From: a virus
IMG/VR virus record: IMGVR_UViG_3300008113_000570
Location: 1-20,784 of that record
Strand: one strand, 5' to 3'
DNA: 20,784 bases
Under the pieces are notes generated by a model, which was not told the origin of the DNA, made no database searches, and saw only the letters and a list, made by a program, of their open reading frames with translations. The stretch's first letter is position 1. Every line of letters begins with the position of its first letter. Positions 3,057 to 20,780 of the stretch are shown piece after piece. The position numbers and the translations under genes were made by a program.

Positions 3057-3646
3057 TAGGAAAAACATTACCAGACTTTATTAAAGTATATGATGATGTT
3101 GTAGATAAAGAACTGTGTTCCAAAATAATTAATAAATTTGAAGAAGATGTATACCTACATGAATATCATGATAGAGAGCAACGTCCAACTTTCACTCAAT
3201 TAAATATTACTCAATATCTTGCTCAAGAATTAGAGAATGGAAATATCAATGATCCTTGGAGTGAACATCATGCAGTCATTCAAAATGCTACTGCATTTGC
3301 TGTTAGGCAGTATCAAAAAGATCTTCTCATTAACGGAGAATTTCCAGAGGATTATGCTCTAGAGCAGATTAGAATAAAGCGTTATCTCAATAATGGCAAA
3401 GAACAATTCAAAGAGCATGTTGATGTAGGTAATTACAATTCTGCTAGAAGATTTTTAGTATTCTTTTTATATTTGAATGATGTGGAGGAAGGAGGGGAAA
3501 CTTCCTTTCCTTCACTAAACTTGCATATCAAACCAAAGTGTGGTAGCATACTGGTGTTCCCTCCATTATGGATGTTCCCTCATGCGGGGAGACCTCCTAT
3601 TTCTGGAACCAAATATATTGCTGGGAGTTATTTACATTATGTTTAG
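3053..3646 (+). CDS. Prolyl-4-hydroxylase-type 2OG-Fe(II) oxygenase (protein 2)
   Basis: A 197-aa protein with the full iron and cosubstrate signature of the P4H-like family: H122-x-D124 in FKEHVDVG, distal His177 in MFPHAGRPP, and Lys187 in [13 protein letters not shown]. The segment [19 protein letters not shown] is the characteristic double-stranded beta-helix strand pair. It should hydroxylate a protein or small-molecule side chain using O2 and 2-oxoglutarate; the substrate is not known. It overlaps uvsX by 4 bases at its start and gp41 by 8 bases at its end, so it is translationally embedded in the replication operon. The conserved core extends almost to the end of the protein. Confidence 0.9.
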
Positions 3647-5021
3647 TGGAAAGATTGAACACCTAGTTCTTGCTAACTTACTTTATGATGAAAAGTATAC
3701 TCGTAAGGTTCTTCCTTTTTTGAAGAAGGATTATTTTGAGGATCACTCTGATAAAGTATTATTTGAAGAAATCAATACTTTTGTCAATCAGTATCAGTCT
3801 CTCCCTACAGCAAATGCTCTACAAATTCAAACAGGTAAAAGAGTTGATCTATCTCAAGATGGATATTCTGAGGTTGTAAATGTTCTAACAAATCTTCCTG
3901 AAGATGAGTGGGATTATGAATGGAAATTAAATACTACTGAATCTTGGTGTAAAGAACGTGCTATCTACTTGGCACTCCTGGAAAGTGTCAGGATTGCCGA
4001 TGGCAAAGATAGTAAGATGACTAGAGATGCAATTCCAGATATCCTTTCAACTGCCCTGAGTGTCAGTTTTGATGATCATGTTGGTCATGATTATATTATT
4101 GATGCATCAGATCGTTACGACTTCTATCATCGTAAAGAAGAAAAAATTCCGTTCGATTTAGAATTCTTTAATAAGATTACTAAAGGTGGTCTTCCGTCTA
4201 AGACTTTGAATATTTGTCTTGCTGGCACAGGCGTTGGCAAATCTCTTTTCATGTGTCATGTCGCGGCAGCTGCATTGTTGCAAGGTAAGAATGTTTTATA
4301 CATTACTTTGGAGATGGCAGAAGAACGTATTGCAGAAAGGATTGATGCCAATCTATTGAATATCTCAATACGAGATTTAGAAACTCTGCCAAAACAATTA
4401 TATGAAAATAAGATTAACTCCTTATCTAAGAAGACGCAAGGCAAACTTATTATTAAAGAATATCCGACTGCCTCTGCTCACTCTGGTCATTTTAAGTCTT
4501 TACTTAATGAACTTTCATTGAAGAAATCTTTTCGACCAGATATTATTTTTATTGATTACTTGAATATTTGTGCAAGTTCTAGGTATAAGGGAACTATTGT
4601 AAATTCTTATACCTATGTTAAAGCAATTGCTGAAGAACTTAGAGGTATGGCAGTTGAGCATAATGTACCTATTGTATCTGCTACTCAAACTACTCGTAGT
4701 GGTTATAGTAATACTGATGTTGATCTTACAGATACATCTGAATCTTTTGGTCTTCCTGCTACTGCCGATTTTATGTTTGCTCTTATTAGTACTGAAGAAC
4801 TAGAAGAACTAGGTCAAATTTGTGTAAAGCAACTCAAAAATAGATATAATGATCCAACATCAAATAGGAAGTTCATCATTGGGGTTGACAGATCTAAGAT
4901 GAAGTTGTATGATGTAGATCAATCAGCACAGAAAGACATTATTGATTCTGGGCAAGATGATTATGAAGATGAAACTGAAAGTAAGTTTCGCAAAAAGTCC
5001 TTTGTAGATTTGAAGTTTTAA
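3639..5021 (+). CDS. 41: Replicative DNA helicase gp41 (DnaB-like)
   Basis: A 460-aa hexameric helicase that would unwind the fork 5'-3' and pair with primase gp61 (encoded at 13398). An N-terminal helical domain (about residues 1-170) precedes a RecA-like domain. Walker A is GTGVGKS (residues 196-202), Walker B is IIFIDYLN with Asp306, and a helicase H3-type segment VPIVSATQTTRSGYS follows. I chose ATG 3639 with GGGAG about 12 bases upstream, because the N-terminal sequence then begins [15 protein letters not shown], typical of DnaB-like proteins; upstream in-frame sequence is the shadow of oxygenase 2. The C-terminal tail is acidic and then basic (KFRKKSFVDLKF). Length is close to T4 gp41 (475 aa). 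Confidence 0.95.
   Translation: MFSGKIEHLVLANLLYDEKYTRKVLPFLKKDYFEDHSDKVLFEEINTFVNQYQSLPTANALQIQTGKRVDLSQDGYSEVVNVLTNLPEDEWDYEWKLNTTESWCKERAIYLALLESVRIADGKDSKMTRDAIPDILSTALSVSFDDHVGHDYIIDASDRYDFYHRKEEKIPFDLEFFNKITKGGLPSKTLNICLAGTGVGKSLFMCHVAAAALLQGKNVLYITLEMAEERIAERIDANLLNISIRDLETLPKQLYENKINSLSKKTQGKLIIKEYPTASAHSGHFKSLLNELSLKKSFRPDIIFIDYLNICASSRYKGTIVNSYTYVKAIAEELRGMAVEHNVPIVSATQTTRSGYSNTDVDLTDTSESFGLPATADFMFALISTEELEELGQICVKQLKNRYNDPTSNRKFIIGVDRSKMKLYDVDQSAQKDIIDSGQDDYEDETESKFRKKSFVDLKF
4885..4913 (+). promoter_or_regulatory. Candidate sigma70 promoter inside gp41, upstream of mazG-like gene
   Basis: TTGACA at 4885-4890, exactly 17 bases, then TATGAT at 4908-4913 (5/6 match). The predicted start near 4920 gives a leader of about 100 bases to the MazG-like gene at 5023, and the transcript would end at the terminator at 5489-5530. 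The arrangement would give mazG its own early unit. It lies in coding sequence, so it needs 5'-end data. Confidence 0.45.
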
Positions 5022-19766: not shown

Positions 19767-20198
19767 ATGGGCAGTTATGAAAATCCTTGGATGTATAATT
19801 CAGAAGTTTTTGAATCAGATCACATTCAAGATTATTTTGGTTTTGTTTATCATATTCACTGCCGTTCAACTGGCAGGTCTTATATTGGTAGAAAATATTT
19901 CTGGAGTTTCAAGACACCGAAGGGAAAATCTAGAAAAGTTAAATCAGAATCTGATTGGAAAAAGTATTACGGATCCTGCCCCGAACTCAAATCCGATATT
20001 AACCTTTGGGGAAAAACATCCTGCGACAGAAGAATACTTAGCCTTCATAAAACAAAGGGACAATGCAACTTTGAAGAAACAAAACAACTCTTCTTGAATA
20101 ATGTTTTGACTGAAGCCTTGACAGACGGCACCCCTGCCTACTATAATTCCAACATCCTAGGCAGATACATGCGTAAGGATTACTTCCACGGGGCTTGA
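19767..20198 (+). CDS. GIY-YIG nuclease-like protein, 143 aa
   Basis: A 143-aa protein with a GIY-YIG-type core: G25-F-V-Y28 (the GIY variant), Y39-I-G41 (the YIG) followed by R42 in SYIGRKYF, and a conserved acidic residue E103 or E104 in NFEETKQLF. These are the catalytic elements of this nuclease fold, which in T4-like phages occurs in Seg homing endonucleases and I-TevI. Here no DNA-binding (NUMOD-type) C-terminal domain follows; the protein ends shortly after the core. It may nick phage or host DNA. ATG 19767 follows a ribosome site in the terminator's 3' arm. The stop TGA is embedded in the -35 box (20195-20200) of the next promoter. Confidence 0.75.
   Translation: MGSYENPWMYNSEVFESDHIQDYFGFVYHIHCRSTGRSYIGRKYFWSFKTPKGKSRKVKSESDWKKYYGSCPELKSDINLWGKTSCDRRILSLHKTKGQCNFEETKQLFLNNVLTEALTDGTPAYYNSNILGRYMRKDYFHGA
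20118..20147 (+). promoter_or_regulatory. Perfect-hexamer sigma70 promoter (TTGACA, TATAAT)
   Basis: TTGACA at 20118-20123, 18 bases, TATAAT at 20142-20147: both hexamers match the consensus. It lies in the last part of the nuclease gene and would start near 20154, reading into the 55-aa gene and the tRNA. Confidence 0.6.
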
Positions 20199-20223
20199 CA
20201 ACTCAGATCAGACCCTATATACT
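20195..20223 (+). promoter_or_regulatory. Sigma70 promoter (TTGACA, TATACT)
   Basis: TTGACA at 20195-20200, 17 bases, TATACT at 20218-20223. It lies in the gap before ATG 20249 and would start near 20230, so it is the most credible early promoter in the window; with the site at 20118 it forms a tandem pair. Confidence 0.75.
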
Positions 20224-20248: not shown

Positions 20249-20416
20249 ATGAATTCAAAAGTGGATTTTCAACTCTTCTCTGCAGATGAAGAGTATCTTA
20301 ATGATACTATTAGTATTCTAGTTGATAAACTTCATGATCTAGTAAGTTCTGGTTTTTATTCGGATGCAAAAGAAGTTGCATCTAAGATTAAACAACTGAA
20401 TAAACTTCGTAACTAG
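20249..20416 (+). CDS. 55-aa acidic-helical hypothetical protein
   Basis: A 55-aa protein beginning MNSKVDFQLFSADEEYLND, mostly helical with a basic C-terminal helix (KEVASKIKQLNKLRN). A good ribosome site GGAGGAG precedes ATG 20249, and the strong promoter just upstream suggests early expression with the tRNA. The final G of the stop TAG is also the first base of tRNA-Arg, so the two cannot be fully expressed from the same RNA molecule without processing. No family is recognised. Confidence 0.75.
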   Translation: MNSKVDFQLFSADEEYLNDTISILVDKLHDLVSSGFYSDAKEVASKIKQLNKLRN

Positions 20417-20488
20417 GGACAGTAGCTCAGCGGATAGAGCATCTGCCTTCTAAGCAGTTGGTCGGGGGTTCGATCCCCTCCTGTCCCG
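20416..20488 (+). tRNA. tRNA-Arg (anticodon UCU)
   Basis: A 73-base cloverleaf: acceptor GGGACAG with CTGTCCC (7 pairs), D-stem GCTC/GAGC, anticodon loop CTTCTAA with U33 and anticodon TCT, T-stem GGGGG/CCCTC (one G-U) with loop TTCGATC, and discriminator G. The outermost anticodon-stem pair is a U-U mismatch. CCA is not encoded. It reads AGA, a frequent codon in this AT-rich genome. Confidence 0.96.
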
Positions 20489-20708
20489 TAGTCACGGATG
20501 GACTATAACAGCACTGGTGGAGTCAATGACCCTACTTGTCTCGGGATGACACTAAAAGCGCCCTGGTCGGGACGGTTCCCTTTTAGGTTTCTTGCTTCCT
20601 TAAAAAGCAAGTGGTGCGGATGGGGATTTATCTCCCGCCGAGTTTCCTATTTCCTCGATAACTAAATAGGTGGCGAGCCTGCTCACGGGGGATTGACCTG
20701 CCCCTTCT
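20489..20708 (+). ncRNA. Structured, apparently non-coding stretch (possible stable RNA)
   Basis: There is no gene I can support in this interval, which has more G+C than the neighbouring genes. Clear hairpins: CTAAAAG/CTTTTAG (20552-20558 with 20580-20586, enclosing CCC/GGG), CTTGCTT/AAGCAAG (20591-20597 with 20605-20611), GCGG/CCGC (20616-20619 with 20635-20638), and CCTATTT/AAATAGG (20646-20652 with 20664-20670). Two halves, about 20585-20639 and 20641-20704, share TTCCT in the loop, GTGG after the stem and GGGGATT, while their stems differ in sequence but keep seven pairs. T4 has two stable RNAs of unknown function in its tRNA cluster; this could be an analogue (inference). A 55-codon open frame at 20498-20665 exists but looks incidental. 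Confidence 0.4.
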
Positions 20709-20780
20709 CTTCTGGTAGTCTATTGGTAAGGTCGGGTGGACAACACACATGGAAACTGGGTTCGATTCCCAGACAGAAGT
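20709..20780 (+). tRNA. tRNA-like sequence with abnormal anticodon arm (possible decayed tRNA)
   Basis: A 72-base sequence folds as a tRNA except in the anticodon arm. The acceptor CTTCTGG/ACAGAAG pairs in six of seven positions, D-stem GTCT/AGGT encloses ATTGGTA, and T-stem CTGGG/CCCAG encloses TTCGATT. The anticodon region GGGTG-GACAACA-CACAT has a G-A mismatch and A rather than U at position 33; the triplet at 34-36 would be CAA. CCA is not encoded. It may be a degenerate tRNA or a tRNA-like RNA with another role. Total length fits a standard tRNA. Confidence 0.45.

Follow-up and report, generated by a model that had tools for sequence, protein, structure and literature searches.

The tRNA cluster of phage T4 includes stable RNAs that are not tRNAs, and we know of no function for these small RNAs. 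GOLLD and ROOL RNAs are also located close to tRNA genes. Both are large, ornate RNAs linked to bacteria and phages (PMC12286853). A further structured RNA, wcaG (Rfam RF01761), was first described in 2010 from marine metagenomes and T4-like cyanophages and was presented there as an apparent regulator of exopolysaccharide or high-light genes (PMC2864571); it has been annotated in the phages S-CREM1 and S-SCSM1 (PMC9964418, PMC9602691). Rfam files the family as 'Cis-reg', but its 5′-leader position was inferred by Rfam and by the 2010 paper and lies outside the RF01761 model itself, and our literature search found no ligand named for this RNA. The manA RNA (RF01745), likewise structured and filed as 'Cis-reg', lies in S-CREM1 exactly between two tRNA genes, where it fills the whole space from tRNA-Leu to tRNA-Asn (locus L122, positions 3568-3782). 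Finally, the STAXI motif, from the same 2010 paper (Weinberg et al., PMC2864571), is a tandem pseudoknot present in two or three copies and situated close to genes that encode DNA-binding proteins.

Here we analysed an RNA-like element near the end of a viral sequence of 20,784 nt (IMG/VR record IMGVR_UViG_3300008113_000570, hereafter the window, meaning the whole stretch). The gene order is of the T4-like cyanophage type and close to that of Synechococcus phage S-CREM1, with the small chain of ribonucleotide reductase, a GIY-YIG endonuclease of the SegE type and then a 55-aa frame on the 5′ side of a tRNA-Arg gene. The element follows and is succeeded by a tRNA-like gene, after which the contig stops. 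In the ARAGORN prediction it takes up the whole gap between the two, with zero bases to spare, and this exact abutment, seen also in other phages, bears out the first-pass annotation, which had placed the RNA in a tRNA cluster. A promoter candidate precedes the 55-aa frame, the tRNA-Arg, the RNA and the tRNA-like gene. The features, all on the plus strand, are as follows.

20195..20223, plus strand: sigma-70-like promoter candidate, TTGACA, 17 nt, TATACT (consensus scan, 11/12 matches)
20416..20488, plus strand: tRNA-Arg (TCT) (ARAGORN; Rfam tRNA, 67.6 bits), its 3′ end adjoining the RNA
20489..20708, plus strand: proposed whole RNA, 220 nt, delimited by the tRNA borders, with the same abutment in other phages
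20490..20517, plus strand: module U1, predicted type A pseudoknot (covariation; held-out covariance model), AGTC 20490-20493 with GACT 20501-20504, crossing pair C20495-G20511, TGG 20515-20517
20519..20532, plus strand: linker hairpin GGAGTC-AAT-GACCC with one bulged A (conserved TGGTGGAG in the alignment; pairing read off the sequence)
20537..20566, plus strand: module U2, predicted type A pseudoknot (covariation of stem and crossing pairs; held-out covariance model), TGTC 20537-20540 with GACA 20548-20551, crossing pairs C20542-G20560 and G20545-C20559, TGG 20564-20566
20583..20684, plus strand: portion matching Rfam wcaG (RF01761) (cmscan, 81.1 bits, E 4.7e-14)
20585..20614, plus strand: module U3, predicted type B H-type pseudoknot (covariation), AGG 20585-20587 with CCT 20598-20600, CTTGCTT 20591-20597 with AAGCAAG 20605-20611, TGG 20612-20614
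20615..20639, plus strand: linker hairpin TGCGGATGGGGATTTATCTCCCGCC (inside the wcaG model; mostly invariant, hence weak covariation)
20639..20673, plus strand: module U4, predicted type B H-type pseudoknot (covariation of stem and crossing pairs, ranks 1-12 of all column pairs), CGAG 20639-20642 with CTCG 20654-20657, CCTATTT 20646-20652 with AAATAGG 20664-20670, TGG 20671-20673
20687..20704, plus strand: 3′ hairpin with loop TTGAC (the same hairpin precedes the tRNA in most tRNA-linked arrays)
20709..20780, plus strand: tRNA-like gene (ARAGORN tRNA-Leu CAA; Rfam tRNA, 24.3 bits), its 5′ end adjoining the RNA

The 3′ half of the element matches RF01761 over its full length (model positions 1-98 of 98) and above the gathering cut-off of 42 bits, with the wcaG layout of two stems flanking a middle hairpin and the conserved GUGG sequences. 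Given this match and the 2010 description, the 3′ half is already known, so that the term 'undescribed' used in the first-pass annotation applies to the 5′ half, for which no Rfam family was found even at E 1. The Rfam search that had been suggested, tmRNA included, thus returned wcaG, and tmRNA was rejected, with no match in either ARAGORN or Rfam. STAXI gave no Rfam match in the window RNA at E up to 1, and GOLLD and ROOL, which are much larger, gave none either; unlike STAXI, the RNA lies among tRNA genes. The manA RNA shows no likeness visible by eye to the window RNA in sequence or module pattern, and the T4 stable RNAs are likened to it as small RNAs inside the tRNA cluster of a T4-like phage. 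Among bacterial hosts, an exact pattern search of 84,980 species genomes, which would pass over diverged copies, gave only six matches, all outside the cyanobacteria; neither Rfam nor the 5′ covariance model described below recognised any of these as wcaG.

In blastn comparisons with phage records the similarity extends in the 5′ direction to about position 20490, well beyond the Rfam match. For the 5′ half we trained a covariance model on 15 metagenomic contigs, leaving out the window and all named phages. This model matches the window at 20490-20584 with an E-value of 6e-17, and gives clear matches (E < 1e-5) in 15 of 17 named-phage loci, mostly just 5′ of wcaG, the other two having marginal matches only; in 12 control loci it found no match. 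On these sequence comparisons, the Rfam wcaG model covers the 3′ half of an RNA that extends further in the 5′ direction. Relative to the Rfam entry, the 5′ extension, the chaining of modules, their apparent exchange between phages and the borders of the arrays, drawn from about 280 related loci, would all be new.

The predicted chain follows a simple pattern, in which a compact pseudoknot is followed by UGG and then usually by a hairpin. The first-pass annotation had described two tandem units with different stems that still pair, and these are present as U3 and U4, each opening with GTTTC and carrying TGG after the stem; their pseudoknot nature, however, had been overlooked, together with the two further pseudoknot units on the 5′ side (20490-20582). 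Across 217 homologues that cover both 3′ units, corrected mutual information is greatest for column pairs of the two stems, in agreement with the proposed selection for RNA structure, and two pairs crossing the second stem rank 3 and 7, which identifies U4 as an H-type pseudoknot. Its crossing stem, CGAG/CUCG in the window, reads CUGG/CCAG in most phages. In an alignment of 18 sequences sharing the same four-unit order all U3 and U4 stem cells are paired, with double changes in 6 of the 7 pairs of U3 and in 5 of the 7 of U4, and since these stems covary across homologues the difference between the two units reflects real selection. The type A units have an AGUC/GACU stem, and their loop bases form crossing pairs with those just 5′ of UGG; for the type A unit that precedes linker 'b', the strongest crossing pair is G-C, A-U or U-A in all sequences of the larger set.

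The same 18 sequences were used for a test of all four units together. With all crossing pairs included, 96.7% of the cells of the structure are paired, against 84.2% in shuffled alignments and about 44-48% when the structure is slid along the sequence. Pairs changed on both sides amount to 26 of 42, compared with 14.9 in the shuffles, a number of double changes that appears hard to explain otherwise than by pairing. The covariation score is 0.443, against 0.204 for shuffles, and none of 500 shuffles scored equally high, a count that is not a probability because the structure was drawn partly from these kindred sequences, whose kinship the covariation statistics ignore. The weakest element is one crossing pair of U1, paired in 8 of 18 sequences, and the linker pairs, being invariant, are uninformative for covariation. 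Overall, the covariation supports four consecutive pseudoknots. Thermodynamic folding (z +0.66) gives no support for structure by itself, but is uninformative since the folding program cannot model crossing pairs. Two other details of the initial description did not hold among the relatives. A third stem (CTAAAAG 20552-20558 with CTTTTAG 20580-20586) is fully paired (7/7) in the window alone, against 1-4 of 7 pairs in 17 homologues, and shares bases with the conserved U3 pseudoknot, while the GGGGATT said to be common to both units does not appear in the alignment as a homologous feature of the two.

The alignment also bears on the suggestion that the region is a small protein gene in the frame 20498-20665, its structure being incidental, which had been named as the finding that would overturn the RNA interpretation. 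A 55-aa open frame does exist there, and short CDS are annotated over the RNA in several phage records, but all three frames hold stops in 16 of the 18 aligned homologues and base pairing governs the sequence change, which makes a protein gene highly improbable.

About 350 loci were gathered, some on viral contigs and others in named phages, and at least 281 of them carry the array; the first search pattern, GTGGTGCGGATGGG, was loose and gave chance matches, and stricter patterns were used afterwards. Because the scans had an upper limit on matches and selected loci by wcaG patterns, the proportions that follow are not natural frequencies: a tRNA lies within about 75 nt on the 3′ side of the last UGG in 46 of 281 arrays, mostly at 37-44 nt, and in 17 of 281 the array starts no more than 5 nt after a tRNA. 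tRNA genes stand directly on both sides in the window and in three contigs (L144, L178 and L193). An intrinsic terminator is found 3′ of 185 of the 267 testable arrays, compared with 84 of 3873 random positions (2.2%), and the 3′ hairpin of the window occupies the position that this terminator has in gene-linked arrays. After removal of near-duplicates 131 arrays remained, with 83 terminator and 22 tRNA cases. A -10-like box lies just 3′ of the terminator in 163 of the 185, and of the 129 cases that show a -35-like box as well, 121 have a spacer of 17 nt; these promoters embedded in terminators are consensus matches only. In most loci the candidate promoter and the terminator share the same DNA after the array, the terminator hairpin carrying the -35-like box and the -10-like box lying 17 nt on, past the T-run (for example, L129:1875-1920). 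Array starts cluster at the stop codon of the upstream gene.

These borders bear first on the interpretation current since 2010, in which wcaG is a 5′-leader riboswitch candidate. As a cis-regulatory tandem riboswitch, the array would offer its pseudoknots as aptamers and govern terminator read-through into exopolysaccharide or high-light genes, in line with the Rfam type and with the 2010 proposal (PMC2864571). Its best argument is that the gene behind most terminator-class arrays belongs to sugar-nucleotide metabolism (epimerase family in 98 of 261, cytidylyltransferase in 24, mannose-6-phosphate isomerase-like in 12), which cis-regulation would explain directly and which counts against a discrete RNA. 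However, no excess complementarity was seen between terminator stems and the arrays that they follow, and so no antiterminator or attenuator signal that would pair an expression platform with an aptamer; a promoter-like element lies after or inside the terminator; and a tRNA comes next in the window and in many phages. It even stands between wcaG and the hli genes in S-MS29, WH25-B and S-H35, being unannotated in the last. In contrast to the leader position assumed for wcaG, the window RNA has two extra 5′ modules and ends before the tRNA-like gene. As the arrays are bounded by tRNAs, stops and terminators with an embedded promoter, and lack complementarity to the terminator, a 5′-leader riboswitch is doubtful, and we consider it rather unlikely overall.

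The arrays may instead be structured 3′ elements that shield upstream transcripts or space tRNA precursors by blocking exonucleases, with no separate partner. Such a barrier would fit arrays that run from a stop codon or tRNA end to a terminator, and also halves that can flank a gene separately, but the sequence conservation of the loops and UGG exceeds the needs of a plain barrier, and simple hairpins probably suffice at the other 3′ ends of many phages, so that we regard this explanation as unlikely. Compared with the RNA of ToxI-like type III toxin-antitoxin systems, whose short repeats are near-identical and lie upstream of a ToxN-like toxin gene, the units differ in sequence and linker, and the commonest neighbour clusters included no recurrent toxin-like neighbour.

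A leader should run into its gene, whereas most arrays stop at a tRNA or a promoter-bearing terminator, which favours a discrete RNA. Our preferred reading, which we hold at about even chances, is therefore an extended wcaG noncoding RNA of ~220 nt with four pseudoknots, freed by tRNA processing and acting as a multivalent scaffold or decoy rather than as a 5′ leader; the 'stable phage RNA' of the first-pass annotation is plausible. The promoter at 20195 would probably drive co-transcription of tRNA-Arg and the RNA, 3′ processing of the tRNA-Arg would release the 5′ end, RNase P acting at the tRNA-like gene would release the 3′ end, and the excised RNA would be stable; in other phages an intrinsic terminator, not a tRNA, would set the 3′ end. 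RNase P cleavage is suggested by the intact acceptor and T stems of the tRNA-like gene, although the score of this gene below the Rfam tRNA cut-off speaks against release by processing. Because the modules repeat with an invariant UGG and conserved A residues, they might be repeated sites at which a single protein or small ligand binds, and the RNA could serve as scaffold or decoy for that partner in infection. The repeated UGGU/UGGC could conceivably pair with the NCCA ends of tRNAs, in the manner of T-boxes. If free-standing, this would be a widespread structured RNA of T4-like cyanophages, perhaps alongside manA. The new borders give reason to doubt the leader model, and together with the pseudoknot chain they define exact constructs for testing.

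An automatic parser of UGG-ended units, applied to the arrays, found 25 architectures, in which two module types (A and B) and several linkers recur; one extra module that it placed inside the window tRNA-Arg was a false call. The unit preceding linker 'a' is of type A in some phages and of type B in others, and the arrays end mostly in Bc-Bd, from which we infer an exchange of modules among phages. The 5′ half is separated from the 3′ half by a small gene in S-SM2 and SynMITS9220M01 and by a larger frame in S-CAM3. The halves are thus able to live apart, and a single folded scaffold is not obligatory. A broader and unlikely extension of the discrete-RNA reading is that wcaG RNAs are phage-specific modular, multivalent pseudoknot RNAs, not riboswitches, which would be excised from tRNA transcripts or self-terminated and would capture a host factor, such as a ribonuclease, a defence protein or a translation factor, with module sets swapped to fit hosts.

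Members of a family of small genes (MATKGTAAKSASG..., about 68 aa) lie between split halves or right beside the array in 31 arrays (for example, L129:1585-1777, L127:1587-1793 and L136 after 1650). The deposited annotations of S-H35 and S-PM2 lack the tRNA genes just 3′ of the RNA (L124:1682-1763 and L132:1747-1818). The atypical tRNA-like gene is kept across cyanophage contigs, in the window, at L122:3321-3392 and in ten other loci, with normal-looking acceptor and T arms and an odd anticodon arm, in which GUG/CAC, GCA/UGC or GCG/CGC surround a GACAA-type loop, and its ARAGORN label varies by phage between Leu, His and Val.
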